Source: Neisseria sp.
GTDB lineage: Bacteria > Pseudomonadota > Gammaproteobacteria > Burkholderiales > Neisseriaceae
Assembly: GCA_030538415.1 (NCBI GenBank)
Contig: JAUNTY010000005.1
Coordinates: 1 to 64,000, forward strand
Reading direction: 5' to 3'
Length of the DNA stretch: 64,000 bases
Shown here: positions 29,963-43,167 of the stretch, in pieces
How positions within the stretch are numbered: position 1 is the first letter of the stretch
Layout: each line of letters begins with the position of its first letter
Program-made: the position numbers and the translations under genes
Notes under the pieces: generated by a model
The model's input: the letters and a program-made list of their open reading frames with translations, nothing else
Databases searched by the model: none
What the model was told of the DNA's origin: nothing

Positions 29963-30002
29963 GCTGCATGATTTGTTTTCATAATAATTATTTTTAGCTA
30001 TT

Positions 30003-30021
30003 GATAATCATAATCATAAAC
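30003..30021 (+). promoter_or_regulatory. Fur box upstream of the TonB receptor
   Basis: GATAATCATAATCATAAAC agrees with the classical 19-base Fur consensus GATAATGATAATCATTATC at 16 positions by eye. It lies 48 bases before the receptor start in AT-rich DNA, where the promoter must be. It predicts iron-repressed expression. Confidence 0.7.
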
Positions 30022-30068
30022 TATAGCATCGTCTGGATGATTACGTCTAATTACATGGGAGCCAGCAA

Positions 30069-33000
30069 ATGGGAAAACAAAGTTTCAAACTGAAAATTCT
30101 GGTAGTGATGATTGCCGGCATCAGCATCTGCGCCACGGCGGCAGCAGAAGAGAACGTACCGGCGGCAGAGGCGCAACAGGGAGTGGAGTTGCAGAGTGTG
30201 GTGGTGGAAGGCAAACGCCTCACCGCCGACCAAAAAGGCGAAGCCGCCGTATTCAGCAAAAACGTATCCAACGTTTACGCTGGGCGGGAATATCTCGAGC
30301 GCTACCGCGTTGATTCCGCCGGCGACATTTTAAAAGGGCTCAACGGCGTCTACAACATGAACACCCGCACCGCAGGCGGCGCGATTACACCCAATATCCG
30401 CGGCGTGGCGGGCAAGGGGCGCATCCCGCTCACCATCGACGGCACCGAACAAACTGTAGATGTGTGGCTCAACAACTACGGCGTGGGCGACCGCAACTAT
30501 GTCGACCCCGCGCTGTTTCGCAGTATCGCCGTAGAAAAAAGCCCCGCCATGACGCGCGGCATGAAATCGGGCGTGGGCGGCAGCATCGCCATCCGCACCA
30601 TCGAGCCGGAAGACATTATTCCCGAAGGCAAAAAATGGGGGGTTGAAGTCAAAACCGAGGTTTCCAATAATACCGTCAAGCCGAAAAACGATTTGGGGCA
30701 ATATCTGGGTTGGCCGGATTACCGCACCCTCCCCGGCGGCGCCACTGCCGACGGCGCGGGCGGCGGCGCAGATCCGTTTACCGGGCAATGGAGTCCGAAC
30801 GCGCTCATCCTCGACGGCCTCGCACCACCCGAAAACAAAAGCAGCAGCGACAACTACAAATTCAGCGGCGACAAAGCGCTGATGCTTTCCGCCGCCTTCA
30901 AAACCGACCTTACCGACGGCCTGGCCGCCTACAGCCACCGCAGTAAAGGCAATTATTTTGCCGGCAAGCGCGGCGCGGAAGGCTATTTGAACAATCCGAT
31001 TTACGACAATGATTGCGCTTACGACAACAGCACCGATGCCACCTGCAAAAGCTCGGCCTCGTTTATTCCCAATATGGCCAAAATCTATAAGCCCGGCAGC
31101 GAAGTATTCAACAGCCACACCGAAACCAAAACCCTGTTGCTGAAAAACAACTGGTATCTGCCAAGCAACCAGAAAATCAGCCTGCAATACATGAAAAACG
31201 ACATTGCTTTCGGTGAAATCAACCCCTTTCAGACGGCCTGGGAGCTGAATTTCGACGAACTCAACCAGCAATTCCCCAAAGAACCGCCAAAACAAGTACC
31301 CGGTACTTCTTCAAAGATTAAAAGCAATACCTACAAAATCGGCTACGAATGGAAGCCCGAAGACAATAAATGGATTGATTTGCAGGCCAATATCTGGCGC
31401 ACCCGCACCGACAGCACACGCCACCAGAGCGGCGGCATGTCGCTGGCCAGTAATCTGGTCGATCCGCTTTATGATGCCTGGCGCTGGTGCAATGTGCGCA
31501 ACCGCCTGCCGCCTTCGGCCACTTGGGCCAATTCATGTGATGATTTGCGCGGCGCTTACGGTTTTACCGCCGATACCACCCAAGACGAGATTATTCAAAA
31601 ATCATGGATTACCGATCCCGAAATGAAAAAGCAGTTTGCCGTGATTTCCGGCGCGCGCCAAACCACCCACGCCACCCGCACCGGTGCCGACATCAGCAAC
31701 CGCTTCCAACTGCGCGACAATCTTGCCATGACGGTGGGCGCGGATATCCAGCATGAAGAGCTGGATGAAAACACCCAAATCATCAATTCAGACGATCTGT
31801 TCAATATGTACGGCACCGTCACCGGGCTGGCGACGATGGCCGGGCCGCGCAGCGGCAAACGGCGCGAGTGGGGCGCAAATCTCGGCTTCGACTGGCAGCC
31901 CACCGACCGCCTGAGCATCCAGGCCGGCGTGCGCTACCACCGCTTCCGCGTCAGCGATACCGCACTGGCACGTGAACGCGCCAACCGCAATCCGCGCTAT
32001 GCGGCGGGGGGCGGGGCTGAAAGTTATGTGACTGGAATTTATATACCGTATTGGCAATTGCTGGGAGATCAGGAGGCAAAAGATTACCGCGAAGTTGAGG
32101 CGGCAAATCATAAATGGGGTGCTGCTGCAGTAGGGAGTGAGGAAAGAGAGAGATATTGGCTAGAATATCTAGAAAAAAAGCAAGTATTCGGAGAAAAATA
32201 CAATTATCCGAAATATGATGAGGATAGTAATGCCCGGCGTGTGGATAATATAAGAAGGGCTATGTCCAATGGCGATCTTTATGGCAATAGATTTAGTGCT
32301 GAAGATCCAATTAATATAGATAAATCAGCTTTTTATAAGATTAATGCGGTTGTTATACCTTACCGGGACGGTAAGTTGGACAGCAGCGCTATGCCGCTTA
32401 CTCCGGCAATGTTTGAAGAGAAAGTAAATAATCCGCAAGGGAAAGATGATGCCTTTTATAAATACCTAGCATGGCCGTATAAAAGTGGTTCGGATACATA
32501 CGAAGAAGTAAAAAATAGAGCAATACAGGCCAGTAACTTTGGCACTTTCAATGATGATCAGGTATCAGCCGTTACCCGAAAGATTACCGAAGCCGAAAAA
32601 TGGCAAAAACCGCAGGATTTGCGCGGCTCGGCTTGGGCACCGATGCTGTCGGTCAGCTACGAGCTTACCGACAACGGCCGCATTTTCGCCCGCTATGCCG
32701 AGATGACACGCTTTCCCAGTATTTACGAAGCCACCGCCGCCACAAGTGGCGGCGGGCTGATTGACAATGCGGTGACACCCGAATTCAATCTGAAGCCTGA
32801 GCGCAGCCGCAGCTGGGAAATCGGCTACGCCTTCAATTTCACGCCTTATTGGCAGCGGCTGCGCCACGGCGATGTGCGCCTGACCTGGTTTGACAACAGC
32901 ATCAAAAACGTGCTCGATACCACTGCCGACCGCCGCATCGTGCAATACGACAAAAAAATCACCCGCGGGCTGGAGCTGCAAAGCCGCATCGATACCGGCC

Positions 33001-33488
33001 GCTATTTCGCTTCCTTCGGCGCCACCTACCGCCTGAAGCAGCTTACCTGCGACAGCGATTTGGCCTTCAGCCACGATATGTATATGCGCCGCGTGCCCGA
33101 CTGCATCGAGGGCGGCTTCGGCGCCACCCGCTTCTATCAGGCCTTGCAGCCCAAATATTCGCTCAATCTCGATATCGGCACTCGCCTGTTGGGCGAAAAG
33201 CTGGAGCTGGGCATGCGCGGCATCTATCACAGCAAGGTGGAAACCAAGCAATACGATGATTTGATTGGCAAAGGCATGGGAAGTATTTTCACCACCACCG
33301 GCAAACCCTACCACTGGCGGCCGGTATTCCTCACCGATGTATACGGGCGCTACCAACTTAACAAAAACCTGAGCATGAATATCGGCGTTACCAACTTGAC
33401 CAACCGCTATTACCTCGATCCGATGTCCAATGTGCCGACGCCGGGGCCGGGGCGTACGGTAACCTTGGGGATTAAAGGCAAGTTTTAA
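30069..33488 (+). CDS. Large TonB-dependent receptor (TdfG/HphR-like)
   Basis: A 1139-residue outer-membrane receptor, longer than the usual 650-950. Signal peptide ends CATAAA (about residue 26); TonB-box-like ELQSVVVEG near 40; plug domain about 60-185 with ITPNIRGVAGKGRIPLTIDG and EKSPAMTRGMKSGVGGSIAI; barrel with very long loops, ending TLGIKGKF. The size and plug sequence resemble the neisserial TdfF/TdfG group. Downstream lie a hemophilin-like secreted protein and a Slam, the same trio as hphR-hphA-slam heme-capture loci, so heme is the most likely ligand; this is inference. A Fur box precedes it. Bases about 32020-32560 (residues about 650-830) are much more AT-rich than the flanks. 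Confidence 0.82.
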   Translation: MGKQSFKLKILVVMIAGISICATAAAEENVPAAEAQQGVELQSVVVEGKRLTADQKGEAAVFSKNVSNVYAGREYLERYRVDSAGDILKGLNGVYNMNTRTAGGAITPNIRGVAGKGRIPLTIDGTEQTVDVWLNNYGVGDRNYVDPALFRSIAVEKSPAMTRGMKSGVGGSIAIRTIEPEDIIPEGKKWGVEVKTEVSNNTVKPKNDLGQYLGWPDYRTLPGGATADGAGGGADPFTGQWSPNALILDGLAPPENKSSSDNYKFSGDKALMLSAAFKTDLTDGLAAYSHRSKGNYFAGKRGAEGYLNNPIYDNDCAYDNSTDATCKSSASFIPNMAKIYKPGSEVFNSHTETKTLLLKNNWYLPSNQKISLQYMKNDIAFGEINPFQTAWELNFDELNQQFPKEPPKQVPGTSSKIKSNTYKIGYEWKPEDNKWIDLQANIWRTRTDSTRHQSGGMSLASNLVDPLYDAWRWCNVRNRLPPSATWANSCDDLRGAYGFTADTTQDEIIQKSWITDPEMKKQFAVISGARQTTHATRTGADISNRFQLRDNLAMTVGADIQHEELDENTQIINSDDLFNMYGTVTGLATMAGPRSGKRREWGANLGFDWQPTDRLSIQAGVRYHRFRVSDTALARERANRNPRYAAGGGAESYVTGIYIPYWQLLGDQEAKDYREVEAANHKWGAAAVGSEERERYWLEYLEKKQVFGEKYNYPKYDEDSNARRVDNIRRAMSNGDLYGNRFSAEDPINIDKSAFYKINAVVIPYRDGKLDSSAMPLTPAMFEEKVNNPQGKDDAFYKYLAWPYKSGSDTYEEVKNRAIQASNFGTFNDDQVSAVTRKITEAEKWQKPQDLRGSAWAPMLSVSYELTDNGRIFARYAEMTRFPSIYEATAATSGGGLIDNAVTPEFNLKPERSRSWEIGYAFNFTPYWQRLRHGDVRLTWFDNSIKNVLDTTADRRIVQYDKKITRGLELQSRIDTGRYFASFGATYRLKQLTCDSDLAFSHDMYMRRVPDCIEGGFGATRFYQALQPKYSLNLDIGTRLLGEKLELGMRGIYHSKVETKQYDDLIGKGMGSIFTTTGKPYHWRPVFLTDVYGRYQLNKNLSMNIGVTNLTNRYYLDPMSNVPTPGPGRTVTLGIKGKF

Positions 33489-33540
33489 TGCCGTCTGAAG
33501 CATTTGTAAGATTAACTGCTCCGTTTCAATCAACTTGTTT

Positions 33541-33632
33541 CGTCATTCCGGCGCAGGCCGGAATCTATGCTTGCCGTTGAACAAATGGATTTTATCGGAT
33601 GGATATGGACTCCGGCCTGCGCCGGAATGACG
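33541..33632. repeat. dRS3-like inverted pair, second unit
   Basis: CGTCATTCCGGCGCAGGCCG and its complement bound a 92-base unit, matching 26035-26140 at both ends. It lies between the receptor and the hemophilin-like gene, with nothing else recognisable from 33633 to 33780. Confidence 0.6.
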
Positions 33633-33781
33633 GAAATGATGTTCGGGCAGTATGTTGAAAAGCCCGCCGGATAGCTCGCATCAGGCCTGCGGAGGCTGTA
33701 TCCGATTTACCTGTAAAACCGGCCTGCGAAAAATAGCAAGCCGTTGATAAAAACAAAAAAGCACACAAACCACGCCTTATG

Positions 33782-33814
33782 TTTTCAGACGGCCTTTGAA
33801 GGCCGTCTGAAAAC
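33782..33814. repeat. Outward-facing DUS pair
   Basis: TTTTCAGACGGCCTT, three bases, AGGCCGTCTGAAAA. The DUS face away from each other, the reverse of the usual terminator orientation, but a hairpin can still form. It sits about 80 bases before the hemophilin-like gene. Confidence 0.55.
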
Positions 33815-33896
33815 AGCGGGTTTTTGCCGGTTTTTGTATCAAAAACCGGAGTGTGCAGTGCTTTTTTAAATGTTGTATCTTTTTAGGAGAATGATG

Positions 33897-34814
33897 ATGT
33901 CTGTAAACAAAACCTTGTTGGCCGCCCTGTTGGTGGGCGCATTCGGTATGGTTAATGCTGCTACTATTGAAGGGAAAAGCAGCAAACCTAATTTGGTTAA
34001 CCCCGGTTCATCCAATACGATTCCGTTTGGCTCAGGCAAACCGGGGCTTTCCATTAACGGTTCCAATTCCATCAATCTGGAAGGCGGTCCGATTAAATAT
34101 ATCCGCCAGAAATACAGCAATACGGCGATTAACGGCAGCAACGTCAATGCCAACGTAAACGGCAACAGCAACCCGAAATATCTGGAGCTGAAAGACGTGA
34201 ACCCGGTGATTGGTCTCTTTACCAACCCGACTTTGGGACAGATTTGGTATGAAAACCGCGCCCACGGCACCGAAGTATACAGCGTGCGCCAGATTGCCAA
34301 TCCGAACTTGCCTGCCGCGCCGAAATTCGGCGGTCTGGTGATGGCGAAGGTAACCGGCCTGCCTGCTGATACGGCGGTATATTTCGGCGAATGGGCGCCG
34401 CGTGCGGGCAATCCGAGCACCGGCTCCAGCACCGATTTGAATATGGCCAGCAGCGACCGCACGGTATGGTATGTGGGTGAAAATCCCACCGGCAACACCA
34501 AAGGGTTGGCCGCTGCCACTTATGATGTGGTGGGTGTCAACAAGCATACGCCGGGGCAGAATGATTTCTACACTGGTGCGGTAACGGCTACGTTTGGTAC
34601 GGGAAGCAATGGCACAATGGCAGGCGGTATCAGCCGTGGCAACGATACCTTGAACTTTAATGGCGTTACGATTGACAATGGCAAAGGCACTTTTACTGGT
34701 GCACAAGGCATTGATGGCCGCTTCTACGGCAGCGGTGCCGCCGCGATGGCCGGTATCGCTACCCGTGGTACAGGGCCGGGTGACGACATTGCCTTCGGCG
34801 GTAAAAAACGCTGA
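33897..34814 (+). CDS. Hemophilin (HphA)-like Slam-dependent secreted protein
   Basis: A 305-residue secreted protein. Start ATG 33897 is the third of three ATGs, seven bases after AGGAG. The signal peptide ends GMVNA-ATIEG with no lipobox Cys, so the product is soluble, not a lipoprotein. The C-terminal ~90 residues have the eight-stranded TbpB-type barrel pattern of Slam substrates: VTATFGTG, GTFTGAQGIDGRFYGSGAAA, and the terminal DDIAFGGKKR. The N-terminal part would be the ligand clamp. Gene order with a TonB receptor upstream and Slam downstream matches hemophilin loci, in which HphA scavenges heme and passes it to the receptor. The ligand is inferred, not shown. Confidence 0.75.
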   Translation: MSVNKTLLAALLVGAFGMVNAATIEGKSSKPNLVNPGSSNTIPFGSGKPGLSINGSNSINLEGGPIKYIRQKYSNTAINGSNVNANVNGNSNPKYLELKDVNPVIGLFTNPTLGQIWYENRAHGTEVYSVRQIANPNLPAAPKFGGLVMAKVTGLPADTAVYFGEWAPRAGNPSTGSSTDLNMASSDRTVWYVGENPTGNTKGLAAATYDVVGVNKHTPGQNDFYTGAVTATFGTGSNGTMAGGISRGNDTLNFNGVTIDNGKGTFTGAQGIDGRFYGSGAAAMAGIATRGTGPGDDIAFGGKKR

Positions 34815-34887
34815 GGCCGTCTGAAAGCCCAATAACCGATGTTTAAACCAGGCAGGGCAAGGCTGCGCAGGCAATGGCGGCTTGCCC

Positions 34888-34992
34888 TATAGTGGAAAAA
34901 CTTAATTCCTGCTACGGCGTTGCTGCGCCTAGCCGTACTATCTGTACTGTCTTCGGCTTGCTGCCTTGTATTAGAGTAAGTTTTCCACTATA
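34888..34992. repeat. Correia element between hphA-like and slam genes
   Basis: A 105-base element, TATAGTGGAAAAACTTAATT to AGTAAGTTTTCCACTATA, with the usual GTACTATCTGTACTGTCTTC core. It ends 19 bases before the Slam start codon and could therefore supply or alter its promoter. Confidence 0.88.
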
Positions 34993-35011
34993 CATCTTGA
35001 CGGAACACGCA

Positions 35012-36487
35012 ATGCTGGGATTACCAACAAAAATCTGGCTGGCGGTCTGTTTATTGGCCGCAGCCACGGCGCATGCCGATGAAGACGATACCCGCCTGCT
35101 GCTCGACCAGGCCGGACGGCAGGCGCAGCAATACCGCCAAAGCGGCTGGCTGGAAGCCGATACCGATGCCGACAAGCGCAGCATCACCATCGACGGCCAA
35201 ACTTATGCCGTGGGCGACAGTGAAGAAGAATTGGCGCAAGGCATTTTCTACGCCCTGAATCTGCGCCAATGGCACAAGGCGGCGCAATTTCTGCCGCGCT
35301 ATCGCGCGCTGCCGCAGCACAAACCGCATCTGGCGCTGATGGCCGAGGGCTTGCTGGCGCGGCAAGAGGGCGATATTGCGGAGGCGCTGGCGAAGATGCA
35401 GGCGGCGCATCGGGCGGCGCCTGAGGATGTGCGCATCCGTTTGGAGCTGGCGCGGCTCTACACGGAAGACAATCAAAACAAAGAAGCAGCGGCGGCTTTT
35501 GAAACGGTATTGGATGCCGAGATGCCGTCTGAGACCCGCGAAGTGGTGCAGGGCTATTTGAACAATATCCGCGAGCGCAGCCGCTGGCACGGCAACATCA
35601 GCGTGGGCGCGGGCTACAACAGCAATATCAACCAAGCCAACGGCAAAAGCGAATGCGTTGCCCGTTTTGAAGACCAATGCTTGATTCAACGCAATCTGCC
35701 TGAAGCGCAAAATTCGCCGTTTTGGCAATACAGCGCGGTGCTCACCAAAAAAACGCCGCTTTCCGGCCATCACAGCCTGCTGCTGCGGCCGTTGGCCTAC
35801 GGCACCAAATACCTGCGCGATGCCGAGCACTCGGGTGAGAAAGAAAGCCACAGCGAGCACACCGCCATGCTTTACGGCGGCTACAACTACACCGATGCCG
35901 GTGATGATTTCAGCCTGCTGCCATATGTAGAGCATTATTTCCGCAACGGCCACACCCAATATCGGGCATTTGGCGCCGAGGCCGCGTGGGCGCGCAAGCT
36001 GGATGAAAAATGGTCGGCGAATGCGCGTGCGGAAGCCAAACGCTTTCATTATGCGGGCGGCCAGAAGATGTATTTCGATGATTACAGCCAATACAGCGCG
36101 GGCGCGGGGGCGGGCTATGCGTTTGCACCGGGCGCGGGCGTGTTTGCCAATCTCGACCTGATTCGCAAGAAATACCCGCATGCGGTGTCGAGCAGCAAGG
36201 AATATGTGGCGCGGGCAGGCGCTTACAAGCTGTTTGAGCAGGGTTTTTACCTCAACGCGATGCTGATTTACCGCTACAGCCGCTACGATGCCGAAAGTTT
36301 TATCGCAGGCGGCGCGCGCCGCAGCGACCGGCAAACGGTATGGCTGGCCGCCGTGGGCGCGCCGAAGTGGCAGTTTAAAAAGATTTATCCGGAATTGCGT
36401 TTCAAACATACGGTCAACCGCAGCAATTCGGATTACTACGCCTACCGTCAAAACGAAGTGACGCTGGGCTTGAAATACCGTTTTTAA
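35012..36487 (+). CDS. Slam, surface lipoprotein assembly modulator (DUF560)
   Basis: A 491-residue outer-membrane translocator. Signal peptide ends AATAHA (about 21). An N-terminal TPR-type domain (about 30-190, including AEGLLARQEGDIAEALAKMQ and LARLYTEDNQNKEAAAAF) precedes a 14-strand-type barrel starting WHGNISVGAGYNSNINQANG and ending TLGLKYRF. That architecture defines Slam proteins, which move TbpB-fold substrates to the surface or outside. Its substrate should be the preceding hemophilin-like protein. The start at 35012 gives the signal peptide; only a weak CGGA lies upstream. A frame from 34874 runs through the Correia element and is not the real start. Confidence 0.87.
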   Translation: MLGLPTKIWLAVCLLAAATAHADEDDTRLLLDQAGRQAQQYRQSGWLEADTDADKRSITIDGQTYAVGDSEEELAQGIFYALNLRQWHKAAQFLPRYRALPQHKPHLALMAEGLLARQEGDIAEALAKMQAAHRAAPEDVRIRLELARLYTEDNQNKEAAAAFETVLDAEMPSETREVVQGYLNNIRERSRWHGNISVGAGYNSNINQANGKSECVARFEDQCLIQRNLPEAQNSPFWQYSAVLTKKTPLSGHHSLLLRPLAYGTKYLRDAEHSGEKESHSEHTAMLYGGYNYTDAGDDFSLLPYVEHYFRNGHTQYRAFGAEAAWARKLDEKWSANARAEAKRFHYAGGQKMYFDDYSQYSAGAGAGYAFAPGAGVFANLDLIRKKYPHAVSSSKEYVARAGAYKLFEQGFYLNAMLIYRYSRYDAESFIAGGARRSDRQTVWLAAVGAPKWQFKKIYPELRFKHTVNRSNSDYYAYRQNEVTLGLKYRF

Positions 36488-36521: not shown

Positions 36522-37493
36522 ATGAACCGCAGATTGTTTTTGCAATATATGGGTGCCGCTTCGGCGGCTTGCTGTCTGCCGAATGCGTGGGCTGCCGAAC
36601 AGGCGCTGACGCTTTACGGCGCGCCGGTGATGCCGACGCTGCTGCTGGCCGCGGCAGAGAAAAACGGGCAGGCGAAAAAGAGCAGGCCGTTTGCGGTGAA
36701 AACCTGGAAAAACGTTGACGTATTGCGGGCGGGGCTGGCCAACCGCTCCATGCAGGCGAGCATGGTGCCGAGCTATGTGGCGGCCAATCTGGCGGCGCGC
36801 GGGCAGGATGTGAAGCTGTTGAATGTGATGTCGTATGGTTTGCTGTATGTGGTGGGGCGCGAACGTGCGCTCGGCGGCGTGGCCGATTTGAGCGGCAAAA
36901 CGCTGGCGATGCCGTTTAAAAACGATATGCCCGATTTGGTGTTGCAGGCTTTGTGCCGCAGCCTGCGCTTGGATTTTGCCAAAATCAAAGTGCAATACAC
37001 CGCCACGCCGCCGGAGGCTTTGGCGCTGTTTTTGCAAAAGCGCGCCGATTATGCGCTGATGCCGGAGCCGATGGTCAGCATGGCCATGATGCGCGGCAAA
37101 CAGATGGGGCAGAATGTGGTGCGTGCGCTGGATATCCAGAAGGCATGGCGGGAAACCATGAAGGCGACAAACGGCATCCCGCAGGCAGGCTTGCTGGTGA
37201 GCGGCGATTTTTACCGCAACAACGGCGCTTTCTTGCGCAGTTTGCAGGCTGATTTGCAGCAGGCGGTGGTTTGGAGCAAAGCCAACCCGCAGGCTGCCGC
37301 GGCCATCGGTGCAAATTATTTGGATGCGCCTGCTCCTGCTTTGGCGGCAGCCTTGCCGCATGCCAATCTGGCGGCGGTGTCGGCGCGGCAGGCGCAGCAG
37401 GATTTGATGCTGTTTTTCAAAACGCTGCATGCGCTCAATCCGCGCATCGTCGGCGGCAAGTTGCCGGATGCATCTTTGTTTGCCGATATCTGA
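36522..37493 (+). CDS. ABC importer substrate-binding protein (NMT1/THI5-like)
   Basis: A 323-residue periplasmic binding protein, starting after AGGAGAAGAAA. The N-terminus MNRRLFLQYMGAASAACCL contains RRLFLQYM, resembling a Tat signal, ending AWA-AEQ. The fold is the NitT/TauT (SsuA-like, NMT1) type: APVMPTLLLAAAEKNG, LAMPFKNDMPDLVLQALCRS, LMPEPMVSMAMM. It heads an operon of permease, ATPase and NnrS. The substrate is unknown; nitrate, sulfonate and thiamine-precursor binders share this fold, and the NnrS/NarX neighbours hint at nitrogen-oxide metabolism. Confidence 0.8.
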   Translation: MNRRLFLQYMGAASAACCLPNAWAAEQALTLYGAPVMPTLLLAAAEKNGQAKKSRPFAVKTWKNVDVLRAGLANRSMQASMVPSYVAANLAARGQDVKLLNVMSYGLLYVVGRERALGGVADLSGKTLAMPFKNDMPDLVLQALCRSLRLDFAKIKVQYTATPPEALALFLQKRADYALMPEPMVSMAMMRGKQMGQNVVRALDIQKAWRETMKATNGIPQAGLLVSGDFYRNNGAFLRSLQADLQQAVVWSKANPQAAAAIGANYLDAPAPALAAALPHANLAAVSARQAQQDLMLFFKTLHALNPRIVGGKLPDASLFADI

Positions 37494-37510: not shown

Positions 37511-38308
37511 ATGATTATCGAAGCAGGGCGCCCGTTGCGGCGCGGCCGGGCGGCGCAGGCGCTGTTTTATTTGTGGGGCGGTTTTGCCTCGCTGGCAGCA
37601 GTGGCGGTATTTTGCGCGCTGTGGCAGCTGGCGGCCGATATGCTCGGCGAATTTGTGTTGCCCGGGCCGTTGCCGGTGTTGCGCCAAACAGGGGCGATTT
37701 TGCAGAATATCCGCGCCGCCGATATTCCGGTTACGCTTTATCGGGCGGGGCTGGGCATCTCTGTGGCGGTGGCCGCCGGGATTATGCTGGGTTTGTTGGC
37801 GGGTTTGTCGAAAACGCTGGGCATTTTCTGCCGCCCCTTAATCAGCATCTTGCTCGGCATGCCGCCGATTATCTGGGTGGTGCTGGCGTTGTTTTGGTTC
37901 GGTATGGGCTCCACCGGCACGGTGTTTACGATTGTGATAACCGTGATACCGCTCACTTTCGCCGCCGCCATGCGCGGCATGCTCACGGTAGACGATGGTT
38001 TGAAGGAAATGCTCGAAGCCTACCGCGTGGGCTGGCGCGGGCGCATCCGCCATCTTTATCTGCCGCATCTTTTGAATTATTTGCTTCCGTCGGTCAGCGT
38101 GGCGGCAGGCATGGGCGTGAAAATCGCCATCATGGCCGAGCTTTTGGGGGCAGACGACGGTATCGGCGCGCGCATTGCCGCCGCCCGCGCCATGCTCGAC
38201 ACGCAGGAAGTGTTGGCTTATGTGGTGGTGGTATTGATGGTGATTTTTGCAGTGGAATATCTGCTGATTGAGCCGTTGCGTATTTTACTGATGCCGTGGG
38301 AGTATTGA
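37511..38308 (+). CDS. ABC importer permease (NitT/TauT type)
   Basis: A 265-residue permease with six helices and the BPD_transp_1 EAA-type loop (LKEMLEAYRVGWRGRIRHLY, about residue 160-180), which docks the ATPase. FVLPGPLPVL near residue 45 is typical of SsuC/TauC permeases. Starts at ATG 37511, preceded by a DUS and GAAAG. The stop is two bases from the ATPase start. Confidence 0.83.
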   Translation: MIIEAGRPLRRGRAAQALFYLWGGFASLAAVAVFCALWQLAADMLGEFVLPGPLPVLRQTGAILQNIRAADIPVTLYRAGLGISVAVAAGIMLGLLAGLSKTLGIFCRPLISILLGMPPIIWVVLALFWFGMGSTGTVFTIVITVIPLTFAAAMRGMLTVDDGLKEMLEAYRVGWRGRIRHLYLPHLLNYLLPSVSVAAGMGVKIAIMAELLGADDGIGARIAAARAMLDTQEVLAYVVVVLMVIFAVEYLLIEPLRILLMPWEY

Positions 38309-38309
38309 T

Positions 38310-39008
38310 GTGTTGACGATTGAGGGGCTGGATTGCAGCATCATGGGCGAAGAAATCGTGCACGGGTTTGATTTGAAATTGGCCGCAGGCGAGGTTGCCT
38401 GCCTTTACGGCCCTTCCGGCTGCGGCAAAACCACCATTCTGCGCGTGATTGCCGGGCTGGCCGATTACGACGGCGGCCTCTTGCGCAACACCTTCGGGCA
38501 CACGCATTATCTTTTCCAGGAGCACCGGCTGCTGCCGTGGCGCACTTTGTGGGAAAACGTGCTGCTGACCACGCCCGCGCCCGAGCATGCAGACACGCAG
38601 GCAGAAGCGGCAGAAGTGTTGCAGCATTTGTTTTTGGATAAAAAAGATTGGCAGAAATACCCGCATGAGCTTTCGGGCGGTATGCGGCAGCGGGCGGCGC
38701 TGGCGCGGGCGCTTTTGGGCAAACCGGATTTGCTGCTGCTCGACGAGCCTTTTTCGGCGCTGGATTATGAATTGAAGTTGAAACTGTATGACTGGATTGG
38801 CGGCTATGTGGCGCGCGGCATGGCGGTGCTGATGGTGTCGCACGACCGTTTCGAGGCGCTGAAGCTGGCGCAGCGGATTTACCTGCTGGAGCAGAAACCG
38901 GCGCACAGCCGCGAAGTGGTCAGGCTGGATACGCCGTTGCGGGAGCGCGATGAAGCGTTTGTCCGCCATTATCTGCAACAACCTTTTTGGCGGGCATGGC
39001 ATGAATAA
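38310..39008 (+). CDS. ABC importer ATPase (NitT/TauT type)
   Basis: A 232-residue ATPase. Walker A GPSGCGKTT (about 35-43), Q-loop FQEHRLLPWRT, signature LSGGMRQR (about 125), Walker B LLLLDEPFSALD (about 145), switch His in MVSHD. It starts at GTG 38310, one base after the permease stop, and its last codons overlap the nnrS start, so the cluster is one transcript. Confidence 0.85.
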   Translation: MLTIEGLDCSIMGEEIVHGFDLKLAAGEVACLYGPSGCGKTTILRVIAGLADYDGGLLRNTFGHTHYLFQEHRLLPWRTLWENVLLTTPAPEHADTQAEAAEVLQHLFLDKKDWQKYPHELSGGMRQRAALARALLGKPDLLLLDEPFSALDYELKLKLYDWIGGYVARGMAVLMVSHDRFEALKLAQRIYLLEQKPAHSREVVRLDTPLRERDEAFVRHYLQQPFWRAWHE

Positions 39009-40167
39009 AGGTTTTTTCGGCAAACACGGCTTTTGGGCCTATCCGTTTCGCAGCTATTTTTTGCTGGCTGCGGCGGTGGTGCCGCTGGCGTCGCTGGCTT
39101 GGGCGCTGGCGGTGGCGGGTGCATGGCCGCTGCATGCCGCACCGCTGCACTTTCATGCTTATGCGTTTTTAAACGGCGTGGGCAGCGCGGCGTTTGCAGG
39201 TTTTTTGTTTACGGCGATTCCGGAATGGACGCACGATGCGCGCAACCTGAGCCGCCATGCGAAAGCCACGCTGCTGCTGTGGCTGGCGGCAGCGGGGGCG
39301 GCATTGGTTTCTTTGCAATTTTCGGCCTGGCTGATGTTGGTTTTTTGGCTGTATCTGTTGTGGTTTGTGGGCACGGTAAGCTGGCAGGCGCGGGATAGCC
39401 GCCAGCTGAGCGTGGTGTTGATGCTGTTGGCAGTGGCGGCGTTGGATGCGGGCTTTGCGCTGAGCGGCGACATGCTTTGGCTCAGGCAGATGGCGCATGT
39501 GTTCATCATCGGGATATTGCTGATTACGTTTCGCATCGGCCGCGCCATCGGCCAAAAAGCGTTGCAACAGGGCGGGCGGCAGGATTGCAGTTTTATGCCC
39601 AACCCTTTTTACCGCAACCTTTCGGTGTGCATGCTTTACGGCTATGTGGCGGCGGGCTTGCTGCTGCCGCAGGGGGCGGTGCAGGCTTGGTTGAGCCTGG
39701 CGGTGGGGCTGGCGGTGATTGGCAGGCTGCGCGACTGGCACTATGCGGTGTTGCTGAAGCAATATTATATCCGCTGGTATTACCTGACCCTGTTGGCCGT
39801 CGGTGCCGGTTATGTTTGGCAGGGCGCGGCGGTGATTGCGGGAGACGGCAATCCTCTGCCTGCTTTTCATTTAATCATGATTGGCGGCTATCTGCTGATG
39901 CTGATGCAGGTGTTCGGCATTGCCGGTGCGGTGCACAGCAGCTTGCCGCTGCATTATCCGAAAAGCAACCGCATCAGCCAGATGCTGATTGCGGCGGCTG
40001 CGCTGAGCCGCAGTGCGGCAGTGGCGGGCGGGGCGGATTATGCACTGTTTGCGCTGTGGCTGCCGGGGATTTTGCTGTGGCTGGCATTTTGGCTGTATAT
40101 CCCGGTTTACTGGCAAATTTTTACCAACCATCCGCCGTTGGCAGTCAAGCCTGCGCGCAAGCGCTGA
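39001..40167 (+). CDS. nnrS: NnrS family heme-copper membrane protein
   Basis: A 388-residue protein with about 12 helices. N-terminal GFFGKHGFWAYPFRSYFLLA, HFHAYAFLNGVGSAAFAGFLF and FHLIMIGGYLLMLMQVFGI contain the conserved His-bearing patterns of NnrS, a heme- and copper-binding protein linked to protection from nitrosative stress in denitrifiers. The ATG at 39001 overlaps the ATPase gene by 8 bases. Its association with a nitrate/nitrite sensor pair downstream supports the assignment. Confidence 0.85.
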   Translation: MNKGFFGKHGFWAYPFRSYFLLAAAVVPLASLAWALAVAGAWPLHAAPLHFHAYAFLNGVGSAAFAGFLFTAIPEWTHDARNLSRHAKATLLLWLAAAGAALVSLQFSAWLMLVFWLYLLWFVGTVSWQARDSRQLSVVLMLLAVAALDAGFALSGDMLWLRQMAHVFIIGILLITFRIGRAIGQKALQQGGRQDCSFMPNPFYRNLSVCMLYGYVAAGLLLPQGAVQAWLSLAVGLAVIGRLRDWHYAVLLKQYYIRWYYLTLLAVGAGYVWQGAAVIAGDGNPLPAFHLIMIGGYLLMLMQVFGIAGAVHSSLPLHYPKSNRISQMLIAAAALSRSAAVAGGADYALFALWLPGILLWLAFWLYIPVYWQIFTNHPPLAVKPARKR

Positions 40168-40200: not shown

Positions 40201-40647
40201 ATGAGCTACTATCCCATTGCCCTGACCCTGCATTTGTTTGCCGCGTTGATGTTTGTCGGCACGGTGTTTTTTGAAGTGTTGATTTTGGAAGGCGTGCGCA
40301 AAAGAGTGTCGCCGCGTTTTATGGAAGCGGTGGAAAGCGCCGTAGGCAACCGCGCCAAAACAGTGATGCCTTGGGCTTTGCTGGTATTGTATGGCGCGGG
40401 GATTGCCATGGTGGCAATGCGCTATTGGCCGCAGCTCTCCCACCCTTTGGATTCCAGTTTCGGCACCATGCTGGCCTTGAAAATCCTGTTGGCCTTGAGC
40501 GTGTTCGGCCATTTTTGCACGGCGATGTATTTGCGCAGCCGCGGCAACTTGAAAAGTATTTATTTCAAACGCATCCATTTGAGCGTGTTTATTCATATGG
40601 TGCTGATTGTGATTTTGGCCAAAGCTATGTTTTTCTGGACGTGGTAG
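40201..40647 (+). CDS. CopD-like integral membrane protein
   Basis: A 148-residue protein with four helices and His residues at helix ends (LTLHLFAALMFVGTVFFEV, FGHFCTAMYL, LSVFIHMVLI), in the style of CopD/DUF-type heme or copper membrane proteins often next to NnrS. Start ATG 40201 follows AAAGAGAG. Precise function unknown. Confidence 0.65.
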   Translation: MSYYPIALTLHLFAALMFVGTVFFEVLILEGVRKRVSPRFMEAVESAVGNRAKTVMPWALLVLYGAGIAMVAMRYWPQLSHPLDSSFGTMLALKILLALSVFGHFCTAMYLRSRGNLKSIYFKRIHLSVFIHMVLIVILAKAMFFWTW

Positions 40648-40658
40648 GTAAAACGGAT

Positions 40659-42503
40659 ATGCGCAAACAGCGTTCAGACGGCCTTTTCTTCCATAAACGC
40701 AGGTTCAGGAGCCTGTCGCACAAGCTTTTGGCGGCAATTGCGTTATGGGCGGCGTGTTTTATGCTGTTTATCGCGCTGACGGTATTGATGACCTGGCGGT
40801 TGGAAGACCGCGGCGTGGCCATCAATGAAGCAGGGCGTTTGAACAGCCAGATTTACCGGCTGGCGGCCTTGTCCGACCAAAAGGGCGACAGCGGCAGCCA
40901 GCTTGCATCAATCAGGCATACGCTGGTTTCGCTGGCGCGGCACGACAGCGCTTTTTGCTGCAGTGATGGCGATACGGCATCATCGTCCATCGGCCGCATC
41001 AGGGCGGCTGCGGATAGGTTTGCCGCCGATGTTGAAAAGCAGGCTGCGGGCATACCGGCTACGCCGCCGTTACTGCAACAGGCCGATAGCTTGCACAAAC
41101 TGATTGAAAACTATGCGCAAGCACTCGAATATGAAAACACCCGCAGCATAGGCCTGTTGCGCTGGGTGCGCATGGCATTGGCGGCATTGATTCTGGGCTC
41201 GGCGGCGGCATGTTTCGTGATGTTGCGCAAAACGGTATTGCAGCCTTTGGCCATGTTGCACGGGGCGATTGAGCGGATTACACATGGCAACCTCAATACG
41301 CGGCTGGCGTTGAAATCACGGGATGAATTCGAAGTGGTTTCAGACGGCTTCAACCAGATGTCGGCCAATTTGCAGGATATGTATACGCACCTTGAAGATA
41401 AAGTGGCGCGCAAAACCGCAGAGCTCTCGCGCCAGAACCATGAATGGGAGACACTCTACCAAATCACTTCGTTCCTGCATACCCATGATTTCAGCGAGCA
41501 GGTGCAAGAAGCTTTTCTGACACGCATTCTGACGCTGGTGGGTTTGAAGGCAGGCGGTCTTTTCTGGTGCACGGAAAACTGTTTTTACGCCGGGGCGCGG
41601 CATGGGTTGGATGAAAACCAAAACCGGGCATTGCTGGAGCAACTTGTCAATTATCAGGAAAATCAATCGGATGAAGTGGATTATATTTATTTGGCGCAAC
41701 CCGACGGCACCGATTGTCGCATGATGCTGATTCCGGTGCGCTCGCTGGGCGGGCTGCGTGGAGTCATGGTTTTGCAAACCAACGGCCACGAACCGGCGCC
41801 TGCCGATGAGCGCCTGCTCGGCTTGCTGTGCACGCAATTGGGTATCGCGCAGGAAAATGCCGACCTGATTGAATTGAAGCGGCAGCATGCGGTGCTGGAA
41901 GAGCGCAATATGATTGCGCAAGGGCTACACGACAGCTTGGCGCAATCGTTGTCGTTTTTGAATATCCGCTTTCAAATGTTGCGCAAAAATCAGCAGTTGC
42001 AACAAGACGGCTCCTTGCAAAACAACCTGGCGCTGATTCAGGACGGCATCGAATACTGCTATGAAGATGTGCGCGAATTGCTGAATAATTTCCGCACCCG
42101 GCCGGTGCAGGGAGATTTTACCGAGGCCGTGAGCACCGTAGTTTCGCGCTATCGCAAGCAGATGGGCATTGATGTGGATTTTTATCTTTTGAGCGATAAA
42201 TTGCATTTGAGTGCAGAGCAGCAAATACAGATTCTGTTTATTTTGCAGGAAGCTTTGTCAAATATCCGCAAACATGCGCTTGCCCGCCATGTAGACGTGG
42301 TGTTGGACGACGGAGATGATTTCTGCATGACGATTACCGACGACGGTTGCGGTTTCGATACAGACAAAAACGTGCAAAGCGGCCATATCGGGCTCTCGGT
42401 GATGCGCGAGCGGGCGGAGAAAATCGAGGCCGAGATTAACATCGACTCACAGCTTGGGCAGGGCACGCGCATCAGCCTGAAATTGGCGGCAGACAAAAGG
42501 TAG
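40659..42503 (+). CDS. NarX/NarQ-type nitrate/nitrite sensor histidine kinase
   Basis: A 614-residue sensor. TM1 (about 22-45), a periplasmic domain opening with the nitrate-binding P-box (NEAGRLNSQIYRLAA, about 52-66; the Arg binds ligand), TM2 (about 167-186), HAMP (about 190-240), GAF-like region (about 260-400), HisKA_3 with ERNMIAQGLHDSLAQSL (phospho-His about 424) and HATPase_c at the end (DDGCGFD, GLSVMRERA). Start ATG 40659 is right after a short gap from the CopD-like gene; a longer frame starting at 40371 would overlap that gene in another frame. In Neisseria the equivalent pair (NarQ/NarP) controls nitrite respiration. Confidence 0.85.
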   Translation: MRKQRSDGLFFHKRRFRSLSHKLLAAIALWAACFMLFIALTVLMTWRLEDRGVAINEAGRLNSQIYRLAALSDQKGDSGSQLASIRHTLVSLARHDSAFCCSDGDTASSSIGRIRAAADRFAADVEKQAAGIPATPPLLQQADSLHKLIENYAQALEYENTRSIGLLRWVRMALAALILGSAAACFVMLRKTVLQPLAMLHGAIERITHGNLNTRLALKSRDEFEVVSDGFNQMSANLQDMYTHLEDKVARKTAELSRQNHEWETLYQITSFLHTHDFSEQVQEAFLTRILTLVGLKAGGLFWCTENCFYAGARHGLDENQNRALLEQLVNYQENQSDEVDYIYLAQPDGTDCRMMLIPVRSLGGLRGVMVLQTNGHEPAPADERLLGLLCTQLGIAQENADLIELKRQHAVLEERNMIAQGLHDSLAQSLSFLNIRFQMLRKNQQLQQDGSLQNNLALIQDGIEYCYEDVRELLNNFRTRPVQGDFTEAVSTVVSRYRKQMGIDVDFYLLSDKLHLSAEQQIQILFILQEALSNIRKHALARHVDVVLDDGDDFCMTITDDGCGFDTDKNVQSGHIGLSVMRERAEKIEAEINIDSQLGQGTRISLKLAADKR

Positions 42504-42507
42504 AAAC

Positions 42508-43167
42508 ATGGCAGAAGAGCCCGTAAAAATATTATTGGTAGACGACCACCCCCTGTTTCGGCGCGGGTTGCGGTTTTTATTGTCGCAAGAATACTGCTTT
42601 GACGTGGTGGCCGAAGCCACAGACGGGCTGGAGGGTGTGAAGCTTGCCCGCTACCACAAGCCGGATATTGTGCTGTTGGATTTGGATATGCCGCTGATGA
42701 GCGGCGCGGAGGCTTTGGCGCAAATGCTCGACAACCGCCCCGATTTGCCGGTATTGATACTTACGGTTTCGGAAAATGCAGAAAATCTGCAAAAATGCCT
42801 GAATTTAGGCGCACGCGGATATATTCTGAAAAATGCGGATACTGATTTTCTGGTTGGCGCGATTCGGGCAGCAATGAGCGGCAGCACAACCGTATCGGAT
42901 GAAATGCTGCAAAAGCAGCAGCGGCAAACGGCGCAACGGCAAAAAACACAAACTGCACTTGAAGCGCTTACCGCGCGTGAAAAAGAAGTGTTGCAGTATA
43001 TTGCTGCCGGTATGGGTAATAAAATGATTGCCGATGAAATGAAGGTATCGGAAAACACAGTTAAAGTGCATGTGCAGAATATTCTGAAAAAACTGGGCTT
43101 GCACAGCAGGGTGCAAGCGGCAGTATTCTCAGGCACTTTGCAGCAGGATGATTTTCAGGAATCGTAG
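42508..43167 (+). CDS. narP: NarP/NarL-type response regulator
   Basis: A 219-residue LuxR-family regulator. Receiver domain with acidic pocket LLVDDHP and phospho-Asp in DIVLLDLDMP (about 58), Lys in YILKNAD; HTH domain LTAREKEVLQYIAAGMGNKM to VHVQNILKKLGL. Start ATG 42508 lies seven bases past AAAAGG and four bases after the kinase stop, so it is the cognate partner. Confidence 0.87.
   Translation: MAEEPVKILLVDDHPLFRRGLRFLLSQEYCFDVVAEATDGLEGVKLARYHKPDIVLLDLDMPLMSGAEALAQMLDNRPDLPVLILTVSENAENLQKCLNLGARGYILKNADTDFLVGAIRAAMSGSTTVSDEMLQKQQRQTAQRQKTQTALEALTAREKEVLQYIAAGMGNKMIADEMKVSENTVKVHVQNILKKLGLHSRVQAAVFSGTLQQDDFQES

Follow-up and report, generated by a model that had tools for sequence, protein, structure and literature searches.

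What does an outer-membrane receptor of the TdfG class import, and from which protein does it take its ligand? TdfG itself is a TonB-dependent receptor of the gonococcus whose ligand is not known (PMC9519893). The question is posed by a locus in a 64,000-nucleotide stretch of Neisseria sp. DNA (contig JAUNTY010000005.1; the window), in which the gene of a TdfG-class receptor is followed by those of a 305-residue hemophilin-fold protein, a Slam, an ATP-binding cassette (ABC) importer, and an NnrS protein. The initial annotation, which ended at Slam and overlooked the importer and NnrS beyond it, had described a receptor, a non-lipidated protein, and a Slam in that order, had related them to the hph/slam loci, and had proposed that the receptor takes heme from the secreted protein. 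Pfam, NCBIfam, and solved-structure searches confirm all three genes, Acinetobacter baumannii shows the identical order of receptor, hemophilin, and Slam on one strand, and the idea that the neighborhood supplies the orphan receptor with a partner is supported. Uptake of heme in the manner of HphA is not supported as proposed, because the segment that carries an axial histidine in HphA has an invariant phenylalanine here and no histidine. The locus is a conserved cassette of a known kind that belongs to a variant clade, and the label of heme hemophore is premature.

The 305-residue protein scores 96.2 bits against NCBIfam model NF041636 (cut-off 80), matches solved hemophilins with E values of 1e-10 and 1e-9, and has the handle and C-terminal barrel of the hemophilin fold; its gene has those of a Slam and a TonB receptor as neighbors. 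As it contains no cysteine, no lipobox is possible, in agreement with the non-lipidated status first assigned to it. Pfam domain names alone, which yielded no more than a weak hit on a viral coat domain, were set aside as a guide to its identity. In HphA, both H43 and H106 (numbering of that paper) are needed for heme, binding of which is absent from the H43A/H106A double mutant (PMC8560813); the window protein has neither residue. We take the two histidines to be H42 and H105 of the A. baumannii protein at L081 (loci and genomes are designated by L and G numbers, and percent identities are from protein comparisons). The HphA H106 segment, MPPSH-SALGN, and the IMPDH of the Haemophilus proteins, retained in Hpl of Haemophilus haemolyticus (6om5), align on APKFGG of the window protein; profile and MAFFT alignments of this segment differ by at most 3 columns, and the result for the axial histidine assumes that the placement is correct. 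In an alignment of 43 clade proteins the segment reads PxFGG, with the phenylalanine (F144) and both glycines invariant in all 43. This alignment omits L084, L086, L088, L067, and L069, which are copies of genomes or loci already included, the fragments L107 and L112, and L113 and L119, related cargo with another N-terminal part, but it retains L099, L102, and L106. A count that is independent of alignment gives a similar picture: 36 of the 43 proteins have no histidine in the 30 residues preceding the [YF]FGEW motif, and the seven that do (L100, L102, L104, L110, L111, L115, and L124) all belong to the EV-type subclade and have PHFGG. A histidine is present before this motif in HphA, 8glo, 6om5, and the Vibrio segments and is absent, as in the clade, from six barrel relatives outside it (L015, L016, L025, L026, L030, and L034).

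The PxFGG proteins are separated in the tree from those bearing the histidine by a branch with a Shimodaira-Hasegawa-like approximate likelihood ratio test (SH-aLRT) value of 100, with L015 and L026, cargo with a different N-terminal part, on the PxFGG side; the tree was made by a quick method and not bootstrapped, HphA sits on a long branch, and L099, L102, L106, L016, L022, L023, L024, L028, and L034 were additionally omitted. Both kinds of protein occur within Neisseria, since the hemophilin relatives L017, L018, L029, and L031 retain MPDH. If the alignment is right, the missing histidine makes it harder to carry the HphA mechanism over unchanged. A porphyrin can bind with no axial ligand, and the missing histidine therefore does not exclude heme. 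Judged from its sequence, the protein is filed here as a hemophilin-fold homolog rather than as a heme-binding hemophilin.

The cassette recurs in the gonococcus. There a receptor homolog encoded on the chromosome, with 56% identity over 97% of its length, which bears out the initial assignment of the window receptor as TdfG-like, precedes a hemophilin-like protein (62% identity) and a Slam (50% identity); the receptor and hemophilin-like genes are present on two gonococcal chromosomes and the full set on the one whose locus was inspected. The gonococcal hemophilin-like protein shares the invariant phenylalanine and lacks the axial histidine, whereas the gonococcal locus, unlike the window, has no ABC-NnrS module adjoining it. 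We take the receptor gene, NGO0553, to be tdfG. NGO0553 is listed as a TonB receptor and NGO0555 as an outer-membrane protein (PMC3368942), NGO0554 is described as an hrpC homolog (PMC8406197) and as Slam cargo under Fur control, in a paper that also names NGO0555 as a Slam (PMC12918729), and the pairing of NGO0554 with Slam is thus already in print (PMC8406197, PMC12918729). Slam-dependent export has been demonstrated for HrpC of the Xenorhabdus HrpABC system (PMC8406197), which, like Hpl and the window locus, combines a soluble hemophilin-fold protein with a receptor. Neisseria elongata (L088) carries the whole three-gene set, which fits the statement that TdfG is common to the gonococcus and N. 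elongata (PMC9519893), provided that this gene is tdfG; a contrary review places TdfG in no commensal (PMC12748263). Full-length hemophilin-like homologs were found in 10 of 83 Neisseriaceae genomes, including that of the window, and the nine others are all adjoined by a receptor and a Slam in the same order, save in G012, where the receptor is divergent. The window genome has three Slams and a single copy of the receptor. One genome, G021, has several additional TdfG-class receptors and receptor fragments on C6, C10, and C14.

An ordinary heme hemophore on the pattern of A. baumannii HphA and HphR, which would strip heme from hemoglobin, pass it to the receptor, and hold the iron by some other residue such as H123, H217, or a tyrosine, is unlikely. 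Beyond the common fold and gene order, the window receptor is 32% identical to HphR, for which genetics has shown a requirement in heme use (PMC8560813), and shares with it the plug signature DGTEQ...NRNY(V/I)DP. TonB-hemin (TIGR01785) is the top NCBIfam model for both receptors at near-equal scores, 212.9 bits for the window receptor and 207.7 bits for HphR, each below the cut-off of 316.85. The Fur control of NGO0554 also accords with heme, as does a histidine in 13 of the 43 proteins, all of one subclade (L091, L093, L096, L101, L103, L109, L114, L116, L118, and L120-L123), where it is invariant and lies in the motif SNH (in L121, STH) at a distance of three columns from HphA H43; lacking the other axial histidine, members of this subclade may ligate heme one-sidedly, from the H43 side. 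However, no SNH-type histidine is present in the window protein or in its Neisseriaceae and Alcaligenaceae relatives in the alignment. The only histidines of the window protein are H123 and H217, positions that hold histidine in 2 and 13 of the 43 proteins, respectively, and H217 lies in the barrel. No handle column exceeds 13/43 for histidine or 3/43 for cysteine, and the best tyrosine column reaches 26/43, apart from Y162 of YFGEW (39/43), which HphA has as well. The A. baumannii cluster contains TonB, heme oxygenase, and DUF454 (PMC8560813), in place of which the window has the downstream ABC-NnrS module. The A. baumannii heme oxygenase and TonB and a Vibrio ExbB gave zero blastp matches in the flanks of the 41 loci described below, other heme-degrading families not having been searched. 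The histidines of the receptors were dropped as a test of heme use and are uninformative, because HphR, like the window receptor, has no HasR-type histidine at the plug apex or between the FRAP-like and NPNL-like boxes, the positions that we take to be the HasR ligands.

Other hemophilin-barrel proteins were encountered alongside these. In L030, a group-2 Neisseria hemophilin relative, the axial segment has NDY in place of PDH, a possible replacement of histidine by tyrosine. The Neisseria proteins L020-L023, L025, and L034 (242-268 residues), several of which are rich in histidine in the handle (up to 7), are possibly binders of zinc or other metals. Longer barrel cargo (402-457 residues) with a repeat-rich and proline-rich N-terminal part is found at L015, L016, L026, L077, L113, and L119, and a Slam adjoins the genes in L077, L113, and L119. 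In Marinobacterium iners (L111, 7713-9677), a single receptor gene and a single Slam gene flank two tandem hemophilin-like genes.

When GTDB genomes were scanned with the Neisseriaceae alignment, 41 loci were recovered. Of these, 36 are outside the Neisseriaceae, in Pseudomonas, Halopseudomonas, Comamonas, Alcaligenes, Thauera, Marinobacter, and others, and a different 36 keep the gene order of the window, with all three genes on a single strand. A Pfam tally was made of 129 neighboring proteins (25 of 121 families listed). At the level of the class, a search with the hemophilin profile identified 3 of 369 genomes, including that of the window, which is too few for statistics; another of the three, G231, has an HphR-type cassette and an ABC-NnrS module elsewhere.

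The module, which consists of a binding protein, permease, ATPase, and NnrS, adjoins the cassette in 11 of the 41 loci (L085, L089, L091, L093, L096, L101, L103, L114, L116, L120, and L123; at L116 the binding protein and the start of the permease lie at a contig end). These linkages have three geometries and are distributed among Alcaligenaceae, Comamonadaceae, and Pseudomonadaceae. The window permease is 42-44% identical to cassette-side permeases of Halopseudomonas, Stutzerimonas, and Pseudomonas. At E<=1e-60 the permease is present in 17 of 31 cassette genomes versus 3 of 368 other sampled genomes of the class (Fisher p = 8e-19, with no correction for kinship), and one of these three has an HphR-type cassette elsewhere (L137). 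It is also distributed by subclade, being found in 16 of 17 LV-type genomes versus 2 of 14 EV-type genomes, where the totals are tree rows outside the Neisseriaceae, G462 carries both types, and L099 and L089 are from the same species. NnrS was identified by PF05940 above its cut-off. The binding protein has a fold shared with NitT/TauT-type importers, matching SsuA (22.4/3.8/279), PqqT (22.4/4.2/281), and the uncharacterized 3hn0; the window importer differs from the known importers of this type in its linkage to TonB receptors and NnrS. A limited literature search found no published account of the missing axial histidine, of the spread of the cassette outside Neisseria, or of its linkage with ABC-NnrS.

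These observations are consistent with a route in which receptor, hemophilin-fold protein, and Slam would act as a single uptake unit: Slam would export the hemophilin-fold protein, this soluble protein would capture a small ligand outside the cell, and the TdfG-class receptor would take over the ligand and move it across the outer membrane with energy from TonB. In the window genome, the ligand, or what it yields, would then probably be imported by the downstream binding protein and ABC importer, in a setting that includes a two-component system and NnrS. A link of the ligand to iron is most likely, and it is perhaps porphyrin-like, heme included, but it would not be held by the histidines used in HphA and Hpl; for an iron-linked, possibly porphyrin ligand with no HphA-type ligation, the case for and against is evenly balanced. 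The broader proposal is tentative, and we regard it as possible rather than probable: TdfG-type cassettes may be, not heme systems of the HphA kind, but the outer-membrane half of a distinct two-membrane route of capture protein, Slam, receptor, NitT/TauT-type ABC importer, and NnrS, found mainly outside the Neisseriaceae, often in what we take to be denitrifiers, in which the ligand is held without HphA-type histidine pairs and of which TdfG, NGO0554, and NGO0555 would be an offshoot.

The link with iron was also considered through Fur. Sites were scored crudely, as matches out of 19 to a Fur consensus, in 213 tiles of 300 base pairs across the window, and the Fur-box-like site upstream of the receptor, where the initial annotation placed a Fur box, is the best among all tiles. 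A score of at least 15/19 was reached in just 2 of 12 other receptor upstream regions (L068 and L074), the gonococcal region scoring 13, and no Fur-box-like site was found upstream of the hemophilin gene (best 11/19). Several points weigh against the uptake route described above. In one review the regulation of TdfG is called unknown or indirect and a Fur-independent proposal is cited, and this dispute over Fur control of tdfG weakens the iron argument (PMC9519893). Receptor and hemophilin genes are parted by 408 base pairs containing a strong terminator-like inverted pair of uptake sequences. In the EV-type subclade the module is present in just 2 of 14 genomes, and an AraC regulator is present in 9 of 14 loci. 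Four sequences, all linked to cassettes, went into the permease profile, a choice that favors the recovery of cassette genomes. NnrS is present in 14 of 14 cassette genomes and also in 178 of 369 genomes overall, and on account of this frequency its mere presence was not counted as evidence. Lastly, no module was found within the fetched flanks of the nine other Neisseriaceae cassettes, and three Neisseria genomes (L140, L141, and L142) have a related module at a different place, where it follows another receptor; the module is therefore not required for every TdfG cassette. The gonococcal module, L142, looks broken, with its receptor split over two frames, its permease interrupted by stops, and NnrS in pieces, whereas its relatives at L140 and L141 are intact. 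The receptor found ahead of the module in other Neisseria was sought in the window genome with no match, an empty answer that carries no weight.

Whether the module belongs with the cassette at all is a separate question. The cassette could be a real uptake unit and the module an independent system in a shared island for iron or nitrogen, as its absence beside the other Neisseriaceae cassettes and its occurrence alone or with other receptors would allow; away from the cassette it lies directly behind another TonB receptor in 7 of 11 places fetched, a count that leaves out L136 (permease and ATPase with no binding protein) and the second permeases of G457, G464, and G465. We consider independence doubtful, given the 34-base pair spacing on the same strand in the window, the linkage at 11 loci in three families and three geometries, and the contrast between LV-type and EV-type genomes.

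The ligand could also be something other than a porphyrin, such as a chelate of copper or another metal, or an organic cofactor, wanted by denitrifying or nitric oxide-exposed cells. NnrS beside cassettes and Crp/FNR-type regulators at 9 of the 41 loci accord with this, as does the binding protein, since its fold resembles SsuA and PqqT and the 50 fold matches listed for it include no protein named as heme-binding, and W117 and R131 of the handle, invariant in the 43-protein alignment, could hold an anionic aromatic ligand. Among the module receptors, that of Neisseria ahead of the module elsewhere has TonB-copper as its best model (187 bits, below the cut-off of 472), and for another OprC is close behind ShuA, but five of six have TonB-hemin as the best model and one module is flanked by ferritin and DUF454. 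Fur-type control in Neisseria and the SNH histidine of 13 relatives, with the module in 12 of 13 of their genomes, likewise oppose it, and such a ligand appears improbable. A mode of action like that of TbpB or HpuA, in which a host protein would be bound and offered to the receptor, is most improbable: HpuA (15.3/3.7/199) and the C-lobe of TbpB (13.3/3.6/176) do have the same barrel fold, but the window protein has no lipid anchor, and 36 of the 41 loci are outside the Neisseriaceae, many of them in what we take to be genera best known from soil and water.

The reading of the cassette as an uptake unit of a variant clade names a likely capture partner for TdfG, one without the heme-holding residues of HphA and Hpl, and connects similar cassettes of numerous other bacteria with an inner-membrane importer. 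The question of the ligand becomes approachable in non-pathogenic strains. It also counsels caution, in that hemophilin-fold Slam cargo should not all be annotated as heme binders. The features of the window are collected in Table 1.

Table 1. Features of the cassette, its flanks, and one further gene in the window
Feature	Position	Strand	Remarks
Two overlapping Fur-box-like 19-mers	29997..30015 and 30003..30021	+	16/19 matches each to Fur consensus
TdfG-class TonB-dependent receptor, 1139 aa	30069..33488	+	Pfam Plug and TonB_dep_Rec
Inverted repeat in receptor-hemophilin gap	33538..33635		31-nt arms, 90% complementary; resembles what we take to be Neisseria repeat-array elements
Inverted uptake-sequence pair, terminator-like	33780..33815	+	16-pair stem, T-rich tail; between receptor and hemophilin genes
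Hemophilin-fold protein, predicted Slam cargo, 305 aa	33897..34814	+	Signal peptide by eye; no Cys; no axial His
105-bp element in hemophilin-Slam gap	34888..34992		Terminal inverted repeats TATAGTGGAAAA/TTTTCCACTATA; presumably a Correia-type repeat, by resemblance
Slam (type XI secretion outer-membrane protein), 491 aa from its ATG	35012..36487	+	PF04575 SlipAM E 6.5e-35; PF24575 TPR_Slam E 4.6e-17
Periplasmic solute-binding protein, SsuA-like (NitT/TauT) fold	36522..37493	+	Starts 34 bp past Slam stop
ABC permease	37511..38308	+	BPD_transp_1; 17 bp past binding-protein gene
ABC ATPase	38310..39008	+	ABC_tran; 1 bp past permease gene
NnrS family membrane protein	39001..40167	+	PF05940 E 4.2e-47, 161.7 bits (cut-off 28); overlaps ATPase gene; start codon inferred, longest frame begins 38950
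Small protein, membrane type by eye	40201..40647	+	73% identity to protein directly behind Slam in L066/L067/L084; no match in Pfam search at E 1e-5
Sensor histidine kinase	40659..42503	+	HAMP, HisKA_3, HATPase_c; same position in L066/L067/L084; by eye presumably NarX/NarQ-like
LuxR-type response regulator	42508..43167	+	Response_reg and GerE; same position in L066/L067/L084
Two-partner secretion (TPS)-type secreted protein, 1914 aa	8880..14624	-	DUF637 and PT-VENN pre-toxin domain

In L066, L067, and L084, Slam is followed directly by the small protein and the two-component system that in the window stand beyond NnrS. The 64-kb window contains 80 copies of the ten-base uptake sequence, which we take to be a mark of Neisseria.

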